From Pseudomonadota bacterium (GTDB lineage: Bacteria; Pseudomonadota; Gammaproteobacteria; Burkholderiales; Thiobacillaceae): a stretch of DNA of 64,000 nucleotides. The position numbers and the translations under genes were made by a program. Below, in pieces: positions 243 to 11,151 of this stretch (position 1 is the first letter of the stretch; every line of letters starts with the position of its first letter). The DNA lies in assembly GCA_021820845.1 (NCBI GenBank), contig JAKADC010000010.1:1-64000 (forward strand), written 5' to 3'. The notes under the pieces are model-generated. The model was not told the origin of the DNA. It worked only from the letters and a program-made list of their open reading frames with translations, and did no database searches.

Positions 243-449
243 CTACCGAGGCGGCATTCCGGCTTTGCCGGGATGCCCGGCGAGCCACGCGGGCAGTTCG
301 CGCGACCCGGCGTTCTCGACGATGTACTGGCGCATCAGCTTGCGAATCACCTGCGATGACGTGAGGTCCTGCCGGGCGCAGATGTCGTCGAAGAGCTGTT
401 TTTTGATCGGATCGATCAGGATCGTCATCCGGGCGGTGCGGTTTTCCAT
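243..449 (-). CDS. Ribbon-helix-helix (CopG-like) regulator, copy 1
   Basis: This 68-residue protein starts MENRTARMTILIDP and continues into an amphipathic helix-turn-helix (DICARQDLTSSQVIRKLMRQ), the layout of ribbon-helix-helix DNA-binding proteins. The start at 449 is chosen because the same MENRTAR start occurs in its paralog at 8208-8405. The two align over almost their whole length (LIDPxKKxLFxxICAxxDLTxSQVxRxLxRQYIxENA). A perfect palindrome lies 32 bp upstream at 482-500, overlapping a possible promoter (ATGACA at 511-506, TATCAT at 487-482, 18-bp spacer), so autoregulation is likely. No toxin gene is adjacent, which argues against an antitoxin role. Confidence 0.75.
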   Translation of the reverse strand: MENRTARMTILIDPIKKQLFDDICARQDLTSSQVIRKLMRQYIVENAGSRELPAWLAGHPGKAGMPPR

Positions 450-481
450 GGAACGGGTCGATGAGGCGGGATGGCGATAAT

Positions 482-500
482 ATGATAATTCCATTATCAT
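482..500. promoter_or_regulatory. Palindromic operator 1 (8+3+8)
   Basis: The sequence ATGATAAT-TCC-ATTATCAT is a perfect inverted repeat. It sits between the divergent regulator gene (start 449) and the small winged-helix-like gene (start 597). Its left arm overlaps the likely -10 of the regulator promoter. On the plus strand TTATCA (494-499) and TATGAC (516-521) could form a promoter for the 597 gene. It has the same geometry and six of eight identical arm positions outside the variable base pair as the palindrome at 8168-8186, next to the paralogous regulator. Binding is inferred. Confidence 0.6.
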
Positions 501-596
501 GTGAATGTCATTCCGTATGACGTTTGTTCGTGAAGCGCGGGCTCACCCCGGCGGCGCGCGATGACGCGCCAAGCTCAAAACCAAGGAGTCCCATCC

Positions 597-842
597 ATGC
601 AGAAAATTCATGCCTATCTGAAAGGCCGGGGCGAGCAGCTCGATTCCGAGATCGCCGCGGCGACCCGGATTCCGCTGGAAGACGTGCGCGCTTATCTGTC
701 CGAGATGTCGAAGCGGGGAGACATCATCGCGTGCCACACGACGCGCTTCATCAAGGGCAAGAAAAGCGAAGGCATGCTGTGCCGGATCTCGGGCTACATC
801 CCGCCGGCCGCCCCGGGCAGGAAACCGAAAGCCCGCAGCTAG
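597..842 (+). CDS. Small winged-helix-like protein
   Basis: An 81-residue basic protein. The ATG at 597 is chosen over an upstream in-frame ATG at 561 because AAGGAG at 583-588 lies 8 bases ahead of it. The pattern of helices (MQKIHAYLKGRGEQLDSEI, IPLEDVRAYLSEMSKRGDI) followed by a strand-rich basic segment (CHTTRFIKGKKSEGMLCRI) resembles short winged-helix DNA-binding proteins, but I do not recognise a named family. It is divergent from the ribbon-helix-helix gene with the palindrome 482-500 between them. Its end overlaps the convergent HyfI-like gene by 4 bp. A role in regulating the neighbouring complex is only inferred. Confidence 0.65.
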   Translation: MQKIHAYLKGRGEQLDSEIAAATRIPLEDVRAYLSEMSKRGDIIACHTTRFIKGKKSEGMLCRISGYIPPAAPGRKPKARS

Positions 843-1372
843 CCTGCGGCGTGCGGCCTGCCGGCGCTGACGGCGGCGAGGATGCCCTGCAACAGGGCGA
901 CCGGCGTGGGCGGGCAGCCGGGAATCTCGACATCCACCGGAATCACGTTGGCGACCTTTCCGCACGACGCGTAGCTTTCGCCGAACATCCCGCCGCTGCA
1001 CGCGCACTCGCCCATCGCCACCACCCACCTCGGCTCGGGCATGGCGTCGTAGGCGCGCTTCAGCGACGCTTCCATGTTGCGCGAGACGGGGCCGGTCACG
1101 AGCAGGACGTCGGCGTGCCGCGGGCTGGCGGCGAACTTCACGCCCATGCCGTCGATGTTGTAGTGCGGTCCGTTCACCGCGTGGATCTCGAGTTCGCAGC
1201 CGTTGCAGGAGCCGGCGTCGACGTGGCGGATCGCCACCGCCTGGCCGAAGACCTTGAGGATTTCCGCATGCAGCGCCTGTTCGCGCGTCCGTAGCGCGGC
1301 GTCGGCGTGCGGCGCCGGTTCGGAGACGAAGCCGGTCTTGAAAATTTTCCGCAGGATGAGAGTCGCCGCCAT
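839..1372 (-). CDS. hyfI: HyfI/NuoB-like iron-sulfur subunit of an Ehr-type complex
   Basis: A 177-residue subunit of the NuoB/HycG/HyfI family. It keeps the four cysteines expected to hold the proximal [4Fe-4S] cluster: C56 and C59 in SCNGCE, C123 in GECACSGG, and C153 in PGCPPTP. It would dock with the large subunit encoded just upstream (1-bp gap) on the cytoplasmic arm of the complex. Because the partner large subunit lacks NiFe ligands, the cluster probably serves some other electron-transfer or structural role. It is the last gene of the six-gene minus-strand run that begins at 8109. Confidence 0.9.
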   Translation of the reverse strand: MAATLILRKIFKTGFVSEPAPHADAALRTREQALHAEILKVFGQAVAIRHVDAGSCNGCELEIHAVNGPHYNIDGMGVKFAASPRHADVLLVTGPVSRNMEASLKRAYDAMPEPRWVVAMGECACSGGMFGESYASCGKVANVIPVDVEIPGCPPTPVALLQGILAAVSAGRPHAAG

Positions 1373-1373
1373 C

Positions 1374-2918
1374 TTATAGATCCGTTCCGCTGTAGGAGAG
1401 GTTGAAGGATTTGTTGACGAGCGGGAAGTCGGGCACGATGTTGCCCAGCACGCCCATCTCGAGCAGCGGCCAGTTCTGCCACGACGGGTCGTGCGGATGG
1501 ACGCGGTCGAGCGTGCCGTCGGCCGCGATCCGCACCGCCACCACGACTTCGCCGCGCCAGCCTTCCACCCAGCCCAGACCTTCGCACGCCGCCCGCACCG
1601 GCTCGAGCGGCGCGTGCACGGGCCCCGCGGGCAGCCGCGCGAGGATGTCGCTGATCAGCCGCAGCGATTCGTGCACCTCGGCGAAGCGCACCTCGGCGCG
1701 CGCCAGCACGTCGCCGCGGCGCTGGGTCGCCATGCTCACGTCGAGCTCGTCGTAGGGCGTCTGCGGAAACTGCGTGCGCGCGTCCCACGCCTGCGCGCTC
1801 GCGCGGCCGGCGAGCCCCGTCAGCCCCAGTTGCGCGGCCAGTTCGGGCCGGCACACGCCGGTATCGGCGAAGCGGTCCTGCAAGGTCGGATGCTCGTCGT
1901 AGACCGCCTTGAGTTCGCGTGCTTCGGCGCCGATGCGGCGGGCGAGCGCGTCGAGTTCGGCACGCCCGGCGTCGTCGATGTCGACGGCCACCCCGCCCGG
2001 GACGATGCGATCGAACAGATAGCGGTGGCCGAACAAACTCGCCGTCATCCGCATCCAGTCTTCCTTCAGGCGCCAGAACTGCGCGAAGCCGAACGCGAGC
2101 CCGACGTCGTTGCCGAGGTAGCCGAGGTCGCCGAGATGGTTGGCGACGCGCTCGATCTCGAGGAACAGGGCGCGCAGCCACAAGGCGCGCCCGGGCACCG
2201 TGGCGGCCGCCGCCGTCTCGACCGCCATGCAGTAGGCCCAGGCGAAGGCGCTGTGCGAATCGCCGGAGACGCGCCCCGCAAGCCGCGCGCCGGTGGCGAG
2301 ATCCATGCCCTCGAAGCGCTTTTCGATGCCCTTGTGCGCGTAGCCGAGCCGCGCCTCCAGCTTGAGAATGCGGTCTCCGATGACGGAGAAGCGGAAGTGC
2401 CCGGGTTCGATGGTGCCGGCGTGGATGGGGCCGACCGCGATTTCGTGCACGCCGTCGCCCTCGACGCGGATGAAGGGGTAGGCTTCGGGGCCGCGCGGCG
2501 AGACCGCGGGACGGAATGCGTGATCCTTGCGCAGCGGGAATTCGTCTTCGGCCCAGGCGTTGTGGCGCAGCCACTTGCGCTCGTCGACCGCCCCCTCGGC
2601 GCGAATGCCGAGGAGATCGTAGGTCGCGCGCTGCATGCGGTCGGCCTGCGGGAAGATGTGGGCGAGATCGGGATAGGCCGGGGCGTCAGCGGCCAGCGCG
2701 CTCGACACCCAGGCCAGTCCCGCGCTCGTCAGGAAGGCGGCGTGGATGCCGAAACCCGCGCCGTCGCGGCGATCGTCCGTTCCCCACAGCGCGACGAGCT
2801 GCCCGCCTTCGTCCTTTACCGCGCGCGCCAGCGCCAGCAGCCGCCCGGGTTCCATGCGCCCGCGCCAGCGGTGGCGTCCGATCGCGTCGAGGCTCCAATC
2901 GTGATCGCCGATCCTCAT
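1374..2918 (-). CDS. HyfG/HycE-like large subunit lacking all NiFe cysteines
   Basis: A 514-residue fusion of a NuoC-like domain (about 1-130) and a NuoD/hydrogenase large-subunit domain (about 150-514). In energy-converting hydrogenases the NiFe centre is held by CxxC near the middle and CxxC at the C-terminus. Here these positions read GRVSGDSHS (S218, S221) and SFNLSYSGTDL (S508, G511), so all four ligands are replaced. The surrounding residues still align without gaps (R at 216, AVE at the motif's end, T512-D513). The protein ends right after the second motif, with no hydrogenase-type maturation tail. These are the marks of Ehr (Ech-hydrogenase-related) complexes. H2 chemistry is unlikely and the real substrate is unknown. 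Confidence 0.9.
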   Translation of the reverse strand: MRIGDHDWSLDAIGRHRWRGRMEPGRLLALARAVKDEGGQLVALWGTDDRRDGAGFGIHAAFLTSAGLAWVSSALAADAPAYPDLAHIFPQADRMQRATYDLLGIRAEGAVDERKWLRHNAWAEDEFPLRKDHAFRPAVSPRGPEAYPFIRVEGDGVHEIAVGPIHAGTIEPGHFRFSVIGDRILKLEARLGYAHKGIEKRFEGMDLATGARLAGRVSGDSHSAFAWAYCMAVETAAAATVPGRALWLRALFLEIERVANHLGDLGYLGNDVGLAFGFAQFWRLKEDWMRMTASLFGHRYLFDRIVPGGVAVDIDDAGRAELDALARRIGAEARELKAVYDEHPTLQDRFADTGVCRPELAAQLGLTGLAGRASAQAWDARTQFPQTPYDELDVSMATQRRGDVLARAEVRFAEVHESLRLISDILARLPAGPVHAPLEPVRAACEGLGWVEGWRGEVVVAVRIAADGTLDRVHPHDPSWQNWPLLEMGVLGNIVPDFPLVNKSFNLSYSGTDL

Positions 2919-2919
2919 C

Positions 2920-4371
2920 TCAGCCTCCCAGCAAGTGCGCCGCCTGCCTGTACCAGGCGGCGAGATACGGCGGGATGAACAGGCCGAGCATCAGCACCAG
3001 CCCGAGATGCAGGAAGACCGGCGTCTGCGCGGGCTGGTGGGGCAGACGCGGCAGGCCGGTCTCGCCGAACACCATGGGCTGCACCTTGCCGAAGATGGCG
3101 GCGAACGCGACACCGAGCGCCAGCAGCAGGAAGGGCGTGGCCCACGGGTGCTCGTGCATGGCGGTGGTGATGATGAGGAATTCGCTGGCGAACACGCCGA
3201 AGGGCGGCACGCCGAGGATGGCGATCGTGCCGAGCATCAGGCCCCAGCCCAGCGTCGGATTGGTCCTTATCAGGCCGCGGATGTCGTCCATCAGTTGCGT
3301 GCCGGCCTTTTGCGTGGCGTGGCCGACGGCGAAGAAGATGGCGGACTTGGTGAGCGAGTGCATGGTCATGTGCAGCAGGCCGGCGAAATTCGCCACCGCG
3401 CCGCCCATGCCGAAGGCGAACGTGATCAGGCCCATGTGCTCGATCGAGGAATACGCGAACATGCGCTTCACGTCGGTCTGGCGCTTGATCAGGAACGCCG
3501 CCAGCACCACCGAGAGCAGCCCGAAGCCCATCATCAGGCTGCCCGCCATGTCGGTGCCGAGCGCACCGTCGACCAGCACCTTGGAGCGCATCACCGCATA
3601 CAGCGCGACGTTGAGCAGCAGCCCGGAGAGCACGGCGGACACCGGCGTCGGGCCCTCGGCGTGGGCGTCGGGCAGCCAGCTGTGCAGCGGCGCCAGGCCC
3701 ACCTTCGTTCCGTAGCCCACCAGCAGAAAGACGAAGGCGAGCGACAGCACCGTGGGCTCGAGTTGCGCCTTCACGCCGTTGAGATGCGTCCACAGCAGCG
3801 CGGTGCCGCCCGGGCCCAGCACTTTCTCCGCGGCGAAATAGAGGAGGATGGTGCCGAACAGCGCCAGCGCGATGCCCACGCCGCACAGGATGAAATATTT
3901 CCACGCCGCTTCCAGCGACGCCGGCGTGCGGTAGAGCGAAACGAGCAGCACCGTCGCGAGCGTGGCGGCCTCCATCGCGACCCACAGGATGCCCATGTTG
4001 TTGGTCGTCAGCGCCAGCAGCATGGCGCCGATGAAGATTTGATAGCTTGCGTGATAGAGGCGCAGGCGCGCGGCGTTGAGCCGGCCGTGTTCCTGCTCGA
4101 TGCGCATGTAGGGTCGCGAGAACAGCGCGGTGGTGAAGGCGACGAGCGCGGTCAGCGCGACCAGGAAGACGTTGAACGAATCGATGAAGAACCAGCCGTC
4201 GCCCACGACCATCGGCCCCGACTCGACGATGCGGGCGGTCAGCAGGCTCGCCACCGCGAGCGTGAGGAAGCTGAACAGCGCGTTGATTTCCGGCGCGTTG
4301 CGCCGGCAGCCCCACAGCGCCAGGAAGACGCCGCCGGCCAGCGGAATGCCGAGTAGCCAGAAGAGTTCCAC
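2920..4371 (-). CDS. hyfF: HyfF-like (NuoN/NuoM-type) ion-pumping membrane subunit
   Basis: A 483-residue multi-spanning membrane protein of the antiporter-like family shared by complex I and hydrogenase-4. It has the conserved glutamate in a mid-membrane helix (GILWVAMEAATL) and the lysine helix GYGTKVGLAPLHSWLPDAH, followed by GPTPVSAVLSG and a further lysine in HSLTKSAIFFAVGH. These are the charged residues thought to carry protons or Na+ across the membrane. It is 1 bp upstream of the large-subunit gene. A 73-bp gap separates it from the preceding HyfE-like gene, the longest gap inside the cluster. Confidence 0.92.
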   Translation of the reverse strand: MELFWLLGIPLAGGVFLALWGCRRNAPEINALFSFLTLAVASLLTARIVESGPMVVGDGWFFIDSFNVFLVALTALVAFTTALFSRPYMRIEQEHGRLNAARLRLYHASYQIFIGAMLLALTTNNMGILWVAMEAATLATVLLVSLYRTPASLEAAWKYFILCGVGIALALFGTILLYFAAEKVLGPGGTALLWTHLNGVKAQLEPTVLSLAFVFLLVGYGTKVGLAPLHSWLPDAHAEGPTPVSAVLSGLLLNVALYAVMRSKVLVDGALGTDMAGSLMMGFGLLSVVLAAFLIKRQTDVKRMFAYSSIEHMGLITFAFGMGGAVANFAGLLHMTMHSLTKSAIFFAVGHATQKAGTQLMDDIRGLIRTNPTLGWGLMLGTIAILGVPPFGVFASEFLIITTAMHEHPWATPFLLLALGVAFAAIFGKVQPMVFGETGLPRLPHQPAQTPVFLHLGLVLMLGLFIPPYLAAWYRQAAHLLGG

Positions 4372-4444
4372 GTTCAGCCTTTGCCGCTGGCGACGGCGTC
4401 GCCCGCTTCCGCGAGCGGCCCGGGGTGAGGGAGACGGTGCACGG

Positions 4445-5110
4445 TCATTTTTCCTTGAGCTTTTCCATGTGTTTCAGGTCCAGCGAATCGAACGTTTCGC
4501 GGATCTGGAAGATGAAGATGCCGAGTACGAACACGCCGACCAGCACGTCCAGCGCCACGCCCAGCTCCACCACCAGCGGCATGCCGTAGGTCGCGCTGGT
4601 GGCCGCGAAGAACAGGCCGTTCTCCATCGACAGGAAGCCGATCACCTGCGGGATGGCCTTGGTGCGCGTGATCATCATGAGGAACGCGAGGAGGACGCAG
4701 GCGATCGCGATGCCGAGCGTCGAGCGCGTCACGGTGCCGGACATTTCCGAGATGGGGAGCGCCAGGTTGAAGGCGAAGATCACCAGCAGGATGCCGATCA
4801 GCATCGTGGTCGGGATGTTGATCAAGGGTTCGACGACCCGGTTCACGTCCAGCTTGCGCACCAGGCGGTAGAAGTACCAGGGCATCGCGATCACCTTGAG
4901 GCCGAAGGTCAGCGCGGCCGAGTAATACAGGTGGTACTGGCCTGTCGTCCCGGCGACGATGGCGGTCGAGACGGCGAGGGCGGCGCCCTGCCAGGCGAAC
5001 AGCGTCACCAGCCCGACGACCCGGCGTTGCGAGAGCATGGCGAACGAGATCAGCAGCAGCAGGGCCGCGAGCAGGTTGACGACCTGCAGGTGGAAGGCGA
5101 GTGCCATCAT
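4445..5110 (-). CDS. hyfE: HyfE-like membrane subunit
   Basis: A 221-residue protein with about six to seven hydrophobic segments, ending in a short charged tail (SLDLKHMEKLKEK). It belongs to the HyfE group, whose C-terminal half resembles NuoK (SMENGLFFAATSATYG and VELGVALDVLVGVFVLG). The acidic residue in FLSMENG and the buried glutamate in VELGVALD match NuoK proton-path positions. It lies 45 bp after the HyfC-like gene and belongs to the same transcript. Confidence 0.9.
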   Translation of the reverse strand: MMALAFHLQVVNLLAALLLLISFAMLSQRRVVGLVTLFAWQGAALAVSTAIVAGTTGQYHLYYSAALTFGLKVIAMPWYFYRLVRKLDVNRVVEPLINIPTTMLIGILLVIFAFNLALPISEMSGTVTRSTLGIAIACVLLAFLMMITRTKAIPQVIGFLSMENGLFFAATSATYGMPLVVELGVALDVLVGVFVLGIFIFQIRETFDSLDLKHMEKLKEK

Positions 5111-5155
5111 GGTCTGCGTACCCCGCCCGACGCTCGAATCGGTTCGCGCTTCATC

Positions 5156-6100
5156 TCAGGCCTCTAGCAGGAAGTGGATCAGCATGCCCAGCACCGCGAG
5201 CAGGAAGGCCGTGCCGAGGAATTCCGGGACGCGGAACAGGCGCACCTTGGCCGACACGGCCTCCAGCAGCGACAGCGCGGCACCGCCGGCCGCGAGCTTC
5301 GCCACCATCGCGGCGAGCGCCAGAGGCAGGGCGGCGACGTCGCCCTGCGCGGCGATGCCCCACGGCACGAAGAGCGCGATGCCCAGCGCCGAATACGTGA
5401 ACAGCTTCACCGCCGTCGCCCACTCGATCAGCGCGAGGTGCCGGGCCGAATATTCGAGGACCATCGCCTCGTGGATCATCGTCAGTTCGAGATGCGTGGT
5501 CGGATTGTCGACCGGGATGCGCGCGTTCTCCGCCAGCGAGATCATCCAGAACGCCACCGCCGCGAACGCGAGGCTGGGGTGGATGGCGAACGCCTTGTGC
5601 GCCAGGGTCGCGACGATGACGGGCAGCGCGGTCGACTGGGAGATCAGGCTGGCGGTGAAGAAGACCATGAGCAGCGCCGGCTCGGCCAGGAAGGACACCA
5701 GCATTTCGCGCCGTGCGCCGAGGGTGCCGAACGCCGTGCCGATGTCCATCGCGGCGAGCGCGAGGAAGACCCGTGCCAACGCGAAGATGCCGACCAGGGC
5801 GATGACGTCGGCCGCCGGCGAGAACGGCAGGTCGTTGGCGAGCGTCGGCACGATGCCGGCCGCGAGCGCCATGCTGGCAAAGACCATGTACGGCGCGAAA
5901 CGGAACAGCGGCGAGGCGTCGTGCGCGAGCACCGCGTCCTTGTGGAACAGCTTGCGCAGGGCGCGATAGGGCTGGACGATGGACGGCGCGCTGCGCCCCT
6001 GGAGCCAGGCGCGGCACTGGTTGACCCAGCCCATGAGGAGCGGCGCCAGCAGGATGGCCAGCAGGGTCTGGGCGGCTTGCAGAAGAATGCCGGTGCTCAT
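5156..6100 (-). CDS. hyfC: HyfC-like (NuoH-type) membrane subunit
   Basis: A 314-residue membrane protein with about eight helices. It belongs to the NuoH/HyfC family that joins the soluble arm to the antiporter-like arm. The acidic cytoplasmic loop typical of the family is clear (ENARIPVDNPTTHLELTMIHEA, shown in part, then EYSARHLALIEWATAVKL). The ATG at 6100 overlaps the TGA of the upstream HyfB-like gene as ATGA, which fixes the start and implies translational coupling. Confidence 0.92.
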   Translation of the reverse strand: MSTGILLQAAQTLLAILLAPLLMGWVNQCRAWLQGRSAPSIVQPYRALRKLFHKDAVLAHDASPLFRFAPYMVFASMALAAGIVPTLANDLPFSPAADVIALVGIFALARVFLALAAMDIGTAFGTLGARREMLVSFLAEPALLMVFFTASLISQSTALPVIVATLAHKAFAIHPSLAFAAVAFWMISLAENARIPVDNPTTHLELTMIHEAMVLEYSARHLALIEWATAVKLFTYSALGIALFVPWGIAAQGDVAALPLALAAMVAKLAAGGAALSLLEAVSAKVRLFRVPEFLGTAFLLAVLGMLIHFLLEA

Positions 6101-8109
6101 CGCGCGAACACCAGGAGGAAGATGAGGGTGGCGAAGCTGTAGACCAGATACCACTGGATGCGGCCGTGCTGCAGGCGTCCGGCCTGCCGCGACAGCCACG
6201 CGGTCGCGTCGGCGATGGGCTGGTAGACCAGCAGCCACACCTTGTCGCGGCTGTCGCCGCGATAGCGCGGCTGGCGGTCGAAGGGATCGGGCGTTTCGCG
6301 CTCCACCCGCATGAACACCGCGAAGATCTGCCGGATCGGCTGGCCGAAGCCTTCGGCGCTGTCCTGCATCCGCGCATCCTGTTCCGGATAGCCGCAATCC
6401 CACGGCGCGCTTCGGCGCACCCTGCCGTGGTAGACGCGGCGCACCCACAGGACCGTGAGCCCGACCACCACCGCCATCCCCGCCAGGAAAACCAGCGGGG
6501 CGTAGCTTGCCCGCCCGGCAGAGACCGGCGTCAGCAGCAGCCAGTTGCCGATGCCGGGCAGGCGCTGCCCGGTGAGCATGCGGACCACCGGTTCCAGCCA
6601 CTGGATGACCTGGGTCGGAAAGAGGCCCAGGAGGACGCAGCCGGCCCCCAGCCAGAGCATGCCGAGGCGCTCGGGCCAGCCGGCTTCGTGCGCCTGCCGC
6701 AGCGCCGGATCGCGCGGCTGTCCGAGGAAGACGACGCCGTAGAATTTCACCATCACGTAGGCGGCGAGCGCGGCGGCGAGCGCCACGGTCGCGGCGGCCA
6801 CCGGGATCACCATGTTGAGGTAGGGCTGGGCGAGCCCCGGCGTCAGCAGGAAGGCCTGCAGCAGCAGCCATTCCGAGACGAAGCCGTTGAGCGGCGGCAG
6901 GCCCGCGATCGCCAGCGCGCCGATCAGCGTGAGCCATGCCGTCCACGGCATGCTGCGGATCAGCCCGCCCAGATGGCCCATGCGCCGTTCGCCTGTCGCA
7001 TGCAGCACGGAACCCGTGCCGACGAACAGCAGGCCCTTGAAAAACGCGTGGTTGAGGGCGTGATAGAGAAGCGCGGTCAGCGTGAGCGCCGCCAGCTCGC
7101 CCTTGCCTTCGGTGCGAAAAATCAGCGTCAGGCCGAACGCCGCGAGGATCACCCCGATGTTCTCGATCGACGACCAGGCCAGAAGCCGCTTCATGTCCGA
7201 CTGCACGGCGGCGAAGATCACGCCATAGAGCGCCGTGACGAGGCCCAGCGCCAGCGCCAGCGTGCCCCACCAGCCAAGCTGCATCGGGAGCAGGTCGAAC
7301 GTCACGCGCAGCAGGCCGTAGATCGCGGTCTTCAGCATCACCCCGGACATCAGCGCGGACAGAGGCGAAGGGGCGGCCGGATGCGCTTCGGGCAGCCACA
7401 CGTGCAGGGGCACCAGCCCCGCCTTCGCGCCGAAGCCGAACAGCGCGAGCAGGAACGCCGCCGACGCCCAGAACGGCGCGACGCCGGCCGCACGCATGGT
7501 GTCGAAGGTGTAGTCGCCGTGGCCGCCCTGCAGCACGCCGAAGGCGAGCAGCAGCGACACCGCGCCGACGTGCGCGATCAGGAGATAGAGAAAGCCGGCG
7601 CGGCGGATCTCCGCAATCTTGTGGTCGGTGGTGACGAGGAAATAGGACGACAGCGCCATCACTTCCCACGCGACCATGAAGGCGTACGCGTCGTCGGCGA
7701 GCAGGACCATGGCCATGCCGGCCAGGAACAGGTGATACCACATCGCGAGCAGCGCAAGCGGGCCGCCCGCCATGCTGCGGAAGTAGCCGGCGGCGTGGAC
7801 GGTCACGCCGAAGGCGGCGGCGCCCAGCAAGACGAGGAAAAAGGCCGACAGGGCGTCGAGCCGCAGATGGAAGGGCAGGTCCGGCAGGCCGATGGGCAGC
7901 ACCATGGACGAGGCCGGCAGCAGCAGGCCGGCGACGCCGATTCCCGCGACGAAGAGCGCGCCCAGGGCGCCGAGGGGAAAGATCAGGCGAACGAGCAGGC
8001 CTGGCCGCGCTTGCAGAAACAGCGCCGAAGCACCCAGCGCCAGCCAGTACAGCACACCGCCCCAGGCCAGGTCGAGGACATGGGCATCAAGGGTTGCCGG
8101 GGATGACAT
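6097..8109 (-). CDS. hyfB: HyfB-like (NuoL-type) ion-pumping membrane subunit
   Basis: A 670-residue membrane protein, first gene of the cluster. It carries the antiporter-family glutamate (YAFMVAWEVMALSS), the lysine helix (FGAKAGLVPLHVWLPEAH, then PSPLSALMSGVMLK) and a later lysine (NHAFFKGLLFVG). The C-terminal 150 residues include a soluble stretch (GYPEQDARMQDSAEGFGQP) and a last helix, as in HyfB. The ATG at 8109 has no clear ribosome-binding site. A divergent promoter region and palindrome separate it from the ribbon-helix-helix gene at 8208. The cluster has no HyfA or HyfH ferredoxin subunit. Confidence 0.92.
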   Translation of the reverse strand: MSSPATLDAHVLDLAWGGVLYWLALGASALFLQARPGLLVRLIFPLGALGALFVAGIGVAGLLLPASSMVLPIGLPDLPFHLRLDALSAFFLVLLGAAAFGVTVHAAGYFRSMAGGPLALLAMWYHLFLAGMAMVLLADDAYAFMVAWEVMALSSYFLVTTDHKIAEIRRAGFLYLLIAHVGAVSLLLAFGVLQGGHGDYTFDTMRAAGVAPFWASAAFLLALFGFGAKAGLVPLHVWLPEAHPAAPSPLSALMSGVMLKTAIYGLLRVTFDLLPMQLGWWGTLALALGLVTALYGVIFAAVQSDMKRLLAWSSIENIGVILAAFGLTLIFRTEGKGELAALTLTALLYHALNHAFFKGLLFVGTGSVLHATGERRMGHLGGLIRSMPWTAWLTLIGALAIAGLPPLNGFVSEWLLLQAFLLTPGLAQPYLNMVIPVAAATVALAAALAAYVMVKFYGVVFLGQPRDPALRQAHEAGWPERLGMLWLGAGCVLLGLFPTQVIQWLEPVVRMLTGQRLPGIGNWLLLTPVSAGRASYAPLVFLAGMAVVVGLTVLWVRRVYHGRVRRSAPWDCGYPEQDARMQDSAEGFGQPIRQIFAVFMRVERETPDPFDRQPRYRGDSRDKVWLLVYQPIADATAWLSRQAGRLQHGRIQWYLVYSFATLIFLLVFAR

Positions 8110-8134
8110 GGGGGGCGCGCATGGGTTGGATGAG

Positions 8135-8174
8135 ATTTGATTCTATTGACAAACCAAATCAACTACAATGTTAA
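8135..8174. promoter_or_regulatory. Candidate divergent promoters, regulator and Ehr cluster
   Basis: On the plus strand TTGACA (8146-8151) is followed after 17 bp by TGTTAA (8169-8174), which would drive the regulator gene at 8208. On the minus strand TTGATT (8162-8157) and TCAAAT (8140-8135), with a 16-bp spacer, could drive the six-gene complex starting at 8109. The region is notably AT-rich compared with its surroundings. Both are sequence guesses. Confidence 0.4.
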
Positions 8175-8186
8175 TCTGATTAACAT
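8168..8186. promoter_or_regulatory. Palindromic operator 2 (8+3+8)
   Basis: ATGTTAAT-CTG-ATTAACAT is a perfect inverted repeat 21 bp ahead of the regulator start at 8208. It covers the possible -10 of that promoter and lies 5 bp beyond the possible -35 of the divergent complex promoter. It matches the palindrome at 482-500 in arm length, spacer length and all bases except the symmetrical A/T pair in the arms. That makes a shared family of binding sites for the two paralogous regulators likely. Confidence 0.6.
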
Positions 8187-8207
8187 GTGCCGCATCATCC
8201 CGTCACC

Positions 8208-8405
8208 ATGGAAAACCGTACCGCCCGGCTTACCGTTCTGATCGATCCCCGTAAAAAGAAGCTGTTCGAAGAAATCTGCGCGCAACGCGACCTGACCCCG
8301 TCGCAGGTCGTGCGGCGGCTGATCCGTCAATACATCATGGAAAACGCGGAGGGGCGGGAACTGCCCAAGTGGCTCACGGCGGCGGCGCCGCGAGGCGAGG
8401 AATGA
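8208..8405 (+). CDS. Ribbon-helix-helix (CopG-like) regulator, copy 2
   Basis: A 65-residue protein: N-terminal strand TARLTVLIDP, then two helices (KKLFEEICAQRD and TPSQVVRRLIRQYIM), the ribbon-helix-helix plan. The ATG at 8208 is preferred over an upstream GTG at 8187 because the paralog at 243-449 also begins MENRTAR. The gene stands alone, divergent from the Ehr-type cluster and convergent with the gamma-carbonic anhydrase gene. That position and the palindrome at 8168-8186 make it the best candidate for a local regulator of the complex and possibly of itself. Confidence 0.8.
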   Translation: MENRTARLTVLIDPRKKKLFEEICAQRDLTPSQVVRRLIRQYIMENAEGRELPKWLTAAAPRGEE

Positions 8406-8429: not shown

Positions 8430-8990
8430 TCAGAACTCGTTGCGGATGCGCTTGTAGCCCTTGACCAGCTCGTGGTTGGCCTGGGCGACGCTTTCCGAGA
8501 AATCGGCGGCCTGCGGCGAGACGCGCTCGATCGTCGCCAGGTCGGCGTTCGAATGGATGTTGGCGGTCGACGGAATATAGAAGCCCGGCGGCACGGTGCA
8601 GCCTTCGACCACGGAGTTGTGGCGGATCACCGAACCTTCGCCCACGACGCAGTTGAACAGCACCGAATTGAAGCCGACGAACACGTTGTCGCCCACGGTG
8701 CACGGCCCGTGCACGATGGAGCGGTGGGCGATCGACGAACTCTGTCCGATCGTGACGCCGCCGCCCGCCTTGCAGTGGATGACGACGCCATCCTGGATGT
8801 TGGAATGGGCGCCGATGATGATAGGTTCCATGTCGCCGTTCGCGTCCACCTCGTCGGCGCGGATCACCGCGTAGGGGCCGATGAACACGTTTTCGCCGAC
8901 GATGATCCTGCCGCACAGAATGGCGGTGGGATCGACGAAGGCGGTCTCGTGCACGACGGGCAGGTGCCCGGAGGGGTTCTTGCGGATCAT
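8430..8990 (-). CDS. Gamma-class carbonic anhydrase
   Basis: A 186-residue left-handed beta-helix protein with hexapeptide repeats. The zinc histidines of the gamma class are in place: DGVVIH, then IAHRS 17 residues later, then IVHG 5 residues later. The RADE and NIQDG motifs around the active site also match Cam/CcmM-type enzymes. It would interconvert CO2 and bicarbonate in the cytoplasm. Its ATG overlaps the stop of the SulP transporter gene (ATGA), so the two are coupled and a joint role in inorganic-carbon supply is likely. Whether it docks on the nearby complex-I-like proteins, as gamma-carbonic anhydrases do in plant complex I, is speculation. Confidence 0.9.
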   Translation of the reverse strand: MIRKNPSGHLPVVHETAFVDPTAILCGRIIVGENVFIGPYAVIRADEVDANGDMEPIIIGAHSNIQDGVVIHCKAGGGVTIGQSSSIAHRSIVHGPCTVGDNVFVGFNSVLFNCVVGEGSVIRHNSVVEGCTVPPGFYIPSTANIHSNADLATIERVSPQAADFSESVAQANHELVKGYKRIRNEF

Positions 8991-10789
8991 GACTGGCGAG
9001 GCTCCCCGTTCGGCAGGTGCTGCTGGCAGACCGCGAACGCGCGCACCGAACAGTTGCGGCACGTCTCGTTGTCGAGCGTCGGGTAAAGGATCTCCGCCGG
9101 ACGGGTGCGGGCGCGGAAGAGGTTCTTCTCGCCGATGTCCTGCATGAAGTGGCCGCGCCTGAGCGTTTCCACCAGCCCGTCCTTCATGCGATAGAACGAC
9201 AGGGTGCCGCCGATCTTCTCCCGCTGGCGGGCGGCCTCGGCCAGAAACTCGGAACCGGCCAGATCGACGAAGTTGATGCCGCTCGCCATCACGACCAGAT
9301 GCTTGCGCTCGGGTTCGGTTTCCTCGAGTTCCTGCATCTGCTGCTGCAGGTGCGCGACGGCGCCGAAGAAGATCGAGCCGTTCAGCCGCACCATCTTGAT
9401 CTGCGGGCACTCCTTGCGCCCGTCGAGCGGGGTGTAGTGATAGCTTTCGGGGTCGGGGTCGGGCAACACCGCCTCGAGCGTGGGACGCGACGTGCGGTAC
9501 AGGTAGAACACCAGCGACAGCGCGATGCCGAAGAAGATGCCCTTCTCCAGATCGACCAGGGTGCCGATGAGCGTGACCCACAGGACCAGCGTTTCCTGCC
9601 GGCTGACGCGAGGCAGCAGGTTGATGTGGTGGAAGTCGATCAGGCCCCACGCGACCAGAAACAGGATGCCCGCCATCGCCGCGTTGGGAAGATAGGCGGC
9701 CAGGGGGGCGACCAGCAGCAGAATCACCACCAGGAACAGCGAGGCGAACACTGCGGCCAGCGGGGTGCGCGCGCCGGCGGCGTAGTTGACGCCGCTGCGG
9801 TTGAAGGAACCGCTCGACGCGTAGCTGGAGAAGAAGCTGCCGATGATGTTCGACAGGCCCTGGCCCACGAATTCCTGGTTGCCGTCGATGTGCTGGCCCG
9901 ATTTCGTGGCGATGGCGCGGGAGATGGATACCGCTTCAGTCAGCGCCAGCATCGTGATGATGAGCGCCGGGAACAGCATCTTGTCCAGCGCGCCGAAGGA
10001 CACGTCCGGCGCCGACAGCGGCGGCAGGCCGGCGGGCAGGGCACCGACGGTCTTGATGTGCGTGACGTCCACGCCGTAGCGTGCGTTCAGCACCGCCGCG
10101 GCGACGCTGCCCACGAGCATGGCCGCGATCATGTAGGGGAACTTCGGCATGAAACGCTTGACCAGGATCCCCGACGCCAGCGTGAGGACCGACACCGCGG
10201 TGACGTAGGGGTCGATCTCGTGGATCTTCTGCGCAAACAGCGACAGGATTTCGAAGAAGGGCGTGCCGCGCGGGATATCCAGCCCGAAGAAATTCTTGAT
10301 CTGGCTGCCGGCGATCAGCATCGCCGCGCCGGCGGTGAAACCGATCACGACCGTATGCGAAATGAAGTTCACCAGCACGCCCATCCGCGCGAGACCGAGC
10401 GCGAGCTGGAAGATCCCGGTCATGAACGTCAGCGTCAGCACCAGGCTGATGAATTCCGGCGAACCCGGCGGCGCGAAGGGGCTGACCGATGCGAACACGG
10501 CAATCGAAATCGCCGTCGTGGGGCCCGACACGAGGTGCCACGACGAGCCGAACAGCGCCGCGATGACGGCCGGCATCATCGCCGCGTACAAGCCATATTC
10601 GGGCGGCAAGCCGGCGATCGTGGCGAACGCGACCCCCTGCGGCAGCACGATGAGGGCGCCGGTGAGTCCCGACATCGCGTCGTCGCGCATCGTGCCGCTG
10701 TTGACCGACGGCCACCAGCGCAGGAAGGGAAGGAATTTGTAAACCCAGAGCGGGCACACCAGAGAGGACTTGTAGAGGGCTTTTTGCAT
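8987..10789 (-). CDS. SulP-family anion transporter with STAS domain
   Basis: A 600-residue transporter: about the first 430 residues form the membrane domain (DAMSGLTGALIVLPQGVAFA, ATKSGQHIDGNQEFVGQG) and residues about 440-560 form a STAS domain (NGSIFFGAVAHLQQ, NFVDLAGSEFL). The tail after the STAS carries a CxxC-x7-C group (CRNCSVRAFAVC). SulP proteins move sulfate, bicarbonate or other anions. Overlap with a carbonic anhydrase gene favours bicarbonate, but sulfate cannot be excluded in a sulfur oxidiser. No ribosome-binding site is obvious at the ATG at 10789, and a TAAAAT box at 10804-10799 would leave almost no leader, so the start is uncertain. Confidence 0.9.
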   Translation of the reverse strand: MQKALYKSSLVCPLWVYKFLPFLRWWPSVNSGTMRDDAMSGLTGALIVLPQGVAFATIAGLPPEYGLYAAMMPAVIAALFGSSWHLVSGPTTAISIAVFASVSPFAPPGSPEFISLVLTLTFMTGIFQLALGLARMGVLVNFISHTVVIGFTAGAAMLIAGSQIKNFFGLDIPRGTPFFEILSLFAQKIHEIDPYVTAVSVLTLASGILVKRFMPKFPYMIAAMLVGSVAAAVLNARYGVDVTHIKTVGALPAGLPPLSAPDVSFGALDKMLFPALIITMLALTEAVSISRAIATKSGQHIDGNQEFVGQGLSNIIGSFFSSYASSGSFNRSGVNYAAGARTPLAAVFASLFLVVILLLVAPLAAYLPNAAMAGILFLVAWGLIDFHHINLLPRVSRQETLVLWVTLIGTLVDLEKGIFFGIALSLVFYLYRTSRPTLEAVLPDPDPESYHYTPLDGRKECPQIKMVRLNGSIFFGAVAHLQQQMQELEETEPERKHLVVMASGINFVDLAGSEFLAEAARQREKIGGTLSFYRMKDGLVETLRRGHFMQDIGEKNLFRARTRPAEILYPTLDNETCRNCSVRAFAVCQQHLPNGEPRQS

Positions 10790-11151
10790 AGTAGGCGGAT
10801 TTTAAAGCATTTTGGCCCCTTGACCCAGTGGAAAAGTGCCTTTGCATTCCCGAAACGGGAGGGGAGCGGAGCGGATGGCTGCGGGCGTCGCGGCAAGCGG
10901 TGGGAGGCCTGCGGGCCGCGCGAGGACCGGCAAAGCGCTCGGCTCTGCGGGGTCTTCGGCCGCAATCCGCTGCGGGCGCGCGCGTGATGTTTCCCAAAAA
11001 TCGCCCCGTATCCCGAAGATCCCGGCTCGGGCGGGTATCTGAGGCACTGAAGGGAGCGCCGGTCGTGTGAACAGGGGCCAGGGTCCGGCCGGCGCGAGCG
11101 GAGATTCTCCCCCTGCCGCGCGGGCGAAACCAGGTGGTCCTTCCGGCCGGT
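10790..11151. other. Gene-free stretch, about 360 bp
   Basis: No convincing coding sequence. The left end (10790-10850) is AT-richer and probably holds the SulP promoter, including TAAAAT read on the minus strand at 10804-10799. The rest is GC-rich with short repeats of GGGAG/GGAGCG type but no clear terminator, RNA gene or operator. Long open frames here on both strands have unnatural composition and no family resemblance. Confidence 0.4.

Follow-up and report, generated by a model that had tools for sequence, protein, structure and literature searches.

RHH_9 proteins and a conserved operator-like element pair around a Hyf-like complex in a Thiobacillaceae genome

In a 64,000-nucleotide stretch of DNA from a Pseudomonadota bacterium of the Thiobacillaceae (assembly GCA_021820845.1, contig JAKADC010000010.1, positions 1 to 64,000; hereafter, the window), two small genes for ribbon-helix-helix (RHH) proteins bracket an operon resembling those of hydrogenase 4 (Hyf) and complex I, and a palindrome lies beside each of them. 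Do these genes and palindromes constitute a regulator-operator system and, if so, which genes does it control? Judged from sequence conservation, this is a real, conserved and local regulator-operator module, with an operator that is free in its orientation and with a consistent, poorly understood set of targets.

Both proteins belong to the RHH superfamily and, within it, to the Pfam family RHH_9 (PF19839; curated cut-off of 23.4 bits). The minus-strand gene RHH-A (243-449, with its ATG at 449; 68 residues) and the plus-strand gene RHH-B (8208-8405; 65 residues) scored far above this cut-off, with 117 and 125 bits, respectively, and are 69% identical over 58 residues, which confirms the gene duplication described in an earlier, sequence-only reading of the window. 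The perfect 8+3+8 palindromes reported in that reading were also found to be exact: the predicted A operator is ATGATAAT-TCC-ATTATCAT (482-500) and the predicted B operator is ATGTTAAT-CTG-ATTAACAT (8168-8186). A possible weak third element, ATGACATT (504-511, minus strand), has two mismatches and is 11 bp from the near element of the A operator. No RHH_9 matches other than RHH-A and RHH-B were found in the genome (2.85 Mb, 24 contigs), in which the window forms the beginning of contig C2. The RHH_9 bracket around the complex is conserved: 8 of 117 genomes searched in the family, including the source genome, have a pair of strong RHH_9 genes that share the same divergent orientation and are separated by about 8-9 kb.

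Among 58 aligned RHH_9 proteins, residues E2, R4, A6, R7, T9 and L11 are invariant, and R7, T9 and L11 presumably face the bases, as in CopG and Arc. A monomer model (mean pLDDT 79.7) had helices at 14-27 and 31-46 and no strand, and its structural neighbours were mostly RHH regulators and antitoxins (CopASO, ORF56, PutA, CopG, AmrZ and Arc), none of them at E<=0.001. A profile search of the PDB for a close solved structure returned TAL-repeat artefacts and weak matches only (DinJ, E 0.4; ORF56, E 0.71). Among the titles and abstract openings listed by literature searches, we found no function for RHH_9 and no RHH regulator of SulP or hyf-like genes; judged in this way, no paper listed for the family concerned it, one being on marine toxin-antitoxin systems.

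Palindromes of this kind are rare in the source genome. Allowing up to 3 mismatches, the window contains just the two operators, compared with a chance expectation of 0.05. Inverted sites within the same limit were likewise confined to these two in the whole genome, where the pattern read backwards gave 1 match and the back-to-back layout was not searched; many unrelated copies of the motif were thus not seen. Direct-repeat matches elsewhere in the genome, in 4 places with 3 mismatches each, look like chance. In 12 further genomes, scanned for the inverted and direct layouts but not for the back-to-back one, every one of the 10 perfect inverted sites and of the 5 direct-repeat matches with at most 1 mismatch was situated just upstream of an RHH_9 gene. 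From these sequences the RHH_9 regulator looks local, with about one site per gene.

We then asked how the element is arranged at RHH_9 genes in general. The first set drew on the 30 loci that a genome search supplied, other listed places having no locus, on 80 of 409 relatives, and on the window with its copies; the resulting 123 upstream regions were reduced to 95 non-identical ones. Upstream of these 95 genes the 8-bp element ATGWTAAT was paired exactly 11 bp apart, measured from centre to centre, 77 times, compared with 0.15 in Markov shuffles. Lesser excesses were found at other spacings (e.g., 9 at 13 bp, 5 at 22, 17 at 62 and 16 at 73), and those at 62 and 73 appear, as read from the regions, to derive from the start of the SulP gene. 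The best-pair tally for this set broke ties toward 11, whereas the spacing test on fresh loci had no such preference. These came from a second set, assembled through order-wide and class-wide searches, from which L164-L170 (E>1e-6) were excluded before counting; of its 43 loci, 3 duplicated first-set loci and 1 was a repeat, so that 39 were fresh and non-identical. A pair with at most 1 mismatch was found at 11 bp in 20 of the 39, as opposed to 0-2 at every other spacing from 8 to 24, and the class-wide fresh subset gave 8/14 at 11 bp versus 0/14 at other spacings. This conservation, which extends to loci not used to define the element, strongly supports the regulator-operator module inferred in the sequence-only reading.

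The genes beside the regulators point to candidate targets, as the element pair lies immediately upstream of the RHH_9 gene and most often separates it from a divergent gene of this kind. Counting as a neighbour any homologue within 700 bp of the RHH_9 gene, a HyfB, SulP or spermidine-synthase-like (SAM-MT) homologue adjoined 79 of the 95 first-set genes, a count that rises to 82 when three A-type loci are assigned by hand. These three are the window's A gene, L031 and L032, which have small open reading frames (ORFs) as neighbours and were assigned to SAM-MT in the layout tally, in which HyfC labels were also moved to HyfB. A recognised target stood beside the RHH_9 gene at 32 of 43 second-set loci (14 HyfB, 16 SulP and 2 SAM-MT) and, in the class-wide sample, at 13 of 15. 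When 18 RHH_9 genes were viewed in larger surrounding regions, 9 had a close HyfB, with the full HyfBCEFGI set in 8 and the ninth cut by a contig end. The three target types are linked to one another, since a SAM-MT gene precedes the HyfBCEFGI operon at L173 and SulP and SAM-MT occur together beside the RHH_9 gene at L100.

All four element orientations occur at RHH_9 loci. In the first set, inverted best pairs (><, 11 bp) prevailed at HyfB-class (24 of 30) and SAM-MT-class loci (20 of 23) and direct ones (>>) at SulP-class loci (28 of 29), while the << layout was found at three loci near a second hyf-like cluster. The second set was more varied: SulP neighbours were also found with >< (L152, L154, L155, L160, L163), << (L132) and <> (L140, L157), HyfB neighbours also with >> or << (L131, L153, L158, L122), and L154 carries both >< and <>. 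The association between target and layout is lineage-bound. On the protein tree, operator layout changed 16 times and target 15 times, but the tree is built from few columns and has 78 of 128 inner branches open, so that its unresolved forks could lower both counts and we claim no number of independent switches. Throughout, the 11-bp step stays constant in well-matched pairs while orientation changes, and we infer that each element holds one symmetric dimer.

Both palindromes lie between divergent genes, as previously described: a small ORF (597-842, plus strand) at A and the hyfB-like gene (8109-6097, minus strand) at B. They had also been proposed to overlap the likely -10 of the regulator, and both do overlap promoter-like hexamers, the B operator by a simple sigma-70 score and not by a stricter consensus scan. 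At A, the stricter scan gave ATGACA-18-TATCAT and TTCACA-17-TATTAT for RHH-A. At B, the simple score predicts an RHH-B promoter on the plus strand (8146-8175), with TTGACA (8146-8151), 18 nt and GTTAAT (8170-8175) within the operator, and a hyf promoter on the minus strand (8140-8168), with a -35 box of TTGTAG (8168-8163), 17 nt and a -10 box of TAGAAT (8145-8140); the stricter scan found neither of the two. The first base of the predicted hyf -35 coincides with the last base of the B operator. The same register was found by the simple score, without a shuffled control, at 27 of 29 SulP, 18 of 27 HyfB and 6 of 12 other loci, this tally and that of element position 4 (below) covering the 90 of 95 loci with at most 3 mismatches, with position 4 left free. 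Of the 24 fresh loci where a HyfB or SulP gene is divergent, 13 showed it as well, L118 and L119 being near-duplicates. The regulator's own -10 stands at offsets that differ by group, most often +2, +13 and +18. The register at target promoters is only a lead, because the stricter scan was negative at B and there was no shuffled control; it would fit repression of both promoters, or target activation with autorepression.

Our combined findings make it probable that every RHH_9 protein acts as a local regulator dedicated to the promoter pair where it is located, with repression favoured in both directions. One RHH dimer would occupy each ATGWTAAT element, placing two dimers side by side and one helical turn apart, and element orientation would matter little owing to the dimer's two-fold symmetry. 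The bound dimers would cover the regulator's own promoter, resulting in negative autoregulation, together with the upstream edge of the target -35 box, and repression at both promoters would be relieved by a signal. The hyf-like operon with its six genes (8109 down to 839) would thereby be under the control of RHH-B, and the divergent small ORF (597-842) under that of RHH-A; in relatives this ORF is preceded by the spermidine-synthase-like gene. Repression is likelier than activation, and we put it first because the majority of RHH proteins repress (PMC3325190). Several observations weigh against this reading. No recognised target was found beside RHH_9 at 11 of 43 second-set loci, and no pair with at most 1 mismatch at 19 of the 39 fresh loci, 15 of which have lower-scoring RHH_9 proteins (~90 bits or less); in the first set, L035 and L076 lack any element pair. 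Among inverted matches with 2 mismatches in the 12 further genomes, 8 of 9 were away from RHH_9 genes. The -35 register, which has no shuffled control, was absent from all 22 SAM-MT-class loci, and the precise placement of the operator at the target -35 also suits activation. Lastly, in 399 genomes RuBisCO (E<=1e-100; 150 genomes, with 34 weaker matches scored as absent) was present in 9 of 17 with strong RHH_9 (E<1e-30) versus 141 of 382 others, by hand counts (p = 0.21).

That placement is at the heart of a possible, though less probable, dual role, in which RHH_9 would repress its own gene while activating the divergent target from an operator right next to the -35 box, in the manner of class II activators and LysR-type regulators. 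The operator is fixed to one base at the target -35 in both inverted and direct layouts and in several lineages, its position relative to the regulator's own -10 varies by lineage, and HyfB-class -35 boxes are often poor (TTGTAG, TTGCAA). RHH activators exist as well, AmrZ and H. pylori NikR being named in PMC3325190. However, SulP-class promoters already look strong (TTGACG-16-TATAAT), which suits repression. It is very unlikely that RHH_9 is instead an orphan antitoxin or antitoxin remnant engaged in autoregulation only: the similarity to the RelB/DinJ antitoxin model that would suggest this is weak, with RHH-B at 20.1 bits against a cut-off of 45.65 and RHH-A unmatched, so that neither protein falls within this type II antitoxin family. 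Moreover, most loci have transport, energy or methyltransferase-like neighbours, no toxin was recognised among the scanned neighbouring proteins of the window, and no conserved toxin partner was seen in the loci examined. Least probable, to the point of being negligible, is an origin of the palindromes by chance or as structural repeats. Recurrence of short AT-rich sequences is possible, but hardly to this extent given the expectation for the window, and the spacing specificity in fresh loci excludes chance as a general reading.

Dedicated local regulation can also be set against a single network in which A and B bind each other's sites and the pair frames one regulon, a proposal that we regard as doubtful. 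In its favour, the half-sites are alike except at base 4 and the strand residues are invariant. Furthermore, no RHH-A gene was found between the methyltransferase-like gene and CbbO at L040:1111-1700, but in front of the former there persists an operator-like site that combines a T-type with an A-type element, in a genome whose only strong RHH_9 gene is the B one; this single case speaks for some sharing between the regulators. Against it, the window and all 7 re-read relatives with the bracket share a consistent difference at position 4 of the first arm, where A sites carry A and B sites carry T; in L047 the A site has a degraded second arm. Across all loci the division is less sharp: both arms have A in 12 of 22 SAM-MT-class sites and T in 18 of 27 HyfB and 25 of 29 SulP sites, and residues at positions 8, 22, 31, 35, 37 and 39 tend to follow the A/B split, which does not amount to many independent events because A and B are two gene lineages. 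At L099 and L111 (about 800-1500) the A gene is present with neither RHH-B nor an element pair at hyfB, two single cases that speak for each protein serving its own site. A partly shifted specificity of A and B, although unproven, would match the consistent A/T difference between the operators. The earlier suggestion that the pair frames one regulated block stands at B, where the site faces the hyf-like operon, and fails at A, where the site faces away from it; since the small ORF is the only gene that the A site faces, the complex is not regulated by the bracket at both ends.

The block between RHH-A and RHH-B is a six-subunit operon on the minus strand that is hyf- and complex-I-like. Its first gene, facing the B operator, encodes a hyfB-like antiporter subunit (6097-8109; NCBIfam NF005086, 895 bits), followed by hyfC/nuoH-like (5156-6100; Pfam NADHdh) and hyfE-like subunits (4445-5110; NCBIfam PRK11492, 85 bits, under the curated cut-off), a hyfF-like antiporter subunit (2920-4371; NCBIfam NF005045, 858 bits), a hyfG/nuoCD-like subunit without NiFe-ligand motifs (1374-2918) and a hyfI/nuoB-like subunit with CNGCE cysteines (839-1372), the last two identified from profile matches. 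Subunits B, C, E, F, G and I of [NiFe] hydrogenase 4 thus all have homologues here, with E under the cut-off and G and I closest to complex I models. Neither the canonical L1 motif nor the C-terminal CxxC, in the patterns that we take to be diagnostic of NiFe ligation, was found in any of 32 HyfG homologues, one of which is cut off, whereas CNGCE or CNACE is kept in 31 of 31 HyfI homologues. The complex therefore looks Ehr-like and not like a hydrogenase, since HyfG lacks NiFe-ligand motifs while HyfI keeps the iron-sulfur cysteines. Profile matches and the motif check assign to it the features of the Ehr type: a group-4-like complex with antiporter-like and complex-I-like subunits and no NiFe ligands. 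Such complexes are named Ehr in the available parts of PMC10284858 and PMC6349859, which describe their function as unknown or merely suspected. The same parts of these papers connect Ehr with formate dehydrogenase-like partners or treat its function as unknown, and do not mention an RHH regulator, SulP or a methyltransferase partner. At L085, L088 and L096, RHH_9 is followed downstream, in the same direction, by a second and more distant hyf-like cluster, whose HyfI carries additional CxxC motifs in L085 and L096.

The small ORF divergent from RHH-A (81 residues) has no Pfam or NCBIfam match, has homologues near RHH-A in relatives and may, from our reading of its sequence, be winged-helix-like. 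In relatives it lies behind a spermidine-synthase-like (methyltransferase-like) gene divergent from RHH-A, which is missing from the A site here (500-597), a 46% homologue being found at C20:93950-94591. A single open frame of 405 codons spans the methyltransferase-like gene and the small ORF at L036:1396-2613, where the two may be fused. On the other side of the operon, RHH-B adjoins a pair of overlapping genes that share one direction, encoding a gamma-carbonic-anhydrase-like hexapeptide protein (8430-8990, minus strand; Pfam Hexapep, with NCBIfam CcmM and carbonic anhydrase models under cut-off), a neighbour that is at most a candidate target, and a SulP-family transporter (8987-10789, minus strand; NCBIfam sulP, 395 bits). 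No element pair was found upstream of this SulP gene, in 10781-11080. The left edge of the window reads as a CbbO-like end, a fragment without a Pfam match. Elsewhere, the gene divergent from RHH_9 encodes a Nudix protein at L085, and two SulP genes and a carbonic-anhydrase-like gene stand beside RHH_9 and hyf-like genes at L183.

The nearby SulP, carbonic-anhydrase-like and CbbO-like genes lead to a guess that bicarbonate or CO2 may be the regulator's signal. Some SulP transporters carry bicarbonate (PMC10880623), and such carriage has been predicted for Acidithiobacillus (PMC6458275). Nonetheless, a carbon-fixation signal is not supported, because strong RHH_9 is not significantly tied to RuBisCO, and we rejected an association of RHH_9 with RuBisCO or autotrophy on the grounds of this co-occurrence. 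Six SulP-linked genomes (G222, G334, G390, G434, G451 and G495) have no RuBisCO match.

How does this module compare with known RHH systems? The Arc repressor of phage P22 places two dimers on half-sites ~11 bp apart, a step similar to that of RHH_9 on a different site sequence. The omega repressor of plasmid pSM19035, also an RHH protein, reportedly binds direct and inverted repeats, going by a title of Weihofen from 2006. It is thus like RHH_9 in being a small RHH protein on repeats of both kinds, but omega heptads are contiguous, whereas the RHH_9 elements are 8 bp long, 11 bp apart and chromosomal, generally with a single site for each regulator gene. NikR carries a metal domain. AmrZ and NikR both activate and repress, and AmrZ represses its own gene and binds algD 282 bp upstream (PMC3325190). 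Unlike these two, RHH_9 proteins have ~65 residues and appear, as far as seen, to act at one local site.

A broader proposal is that RHH_9 is a widespread, undescribed class of RHH regulators that recognises paired 8-bp elements in any orientation at a fixed 11-bp step, combines -35-locked target activation with self-shutoff, and serves targets (the NiFe-less hyf-like complex, the SulP transporter and the spermidine-synthase-like protein) belonging to one functional system, perhaps bicarbonate supply. We consider this unlikely as a whole; if true, it would represent LysR-type logic in an RHH fold. The module itself provides an exact cis-code and a short target list for a Pfam family without a function described in the literature titles and abstract openings, and joins three poorly understood gene sets, including an Ehr-like complex, in one testable regulatory unit. 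With all orientations at one spacing, its operator would be a natural test of how far symmetric dimers tolerate the orientation of their sites.
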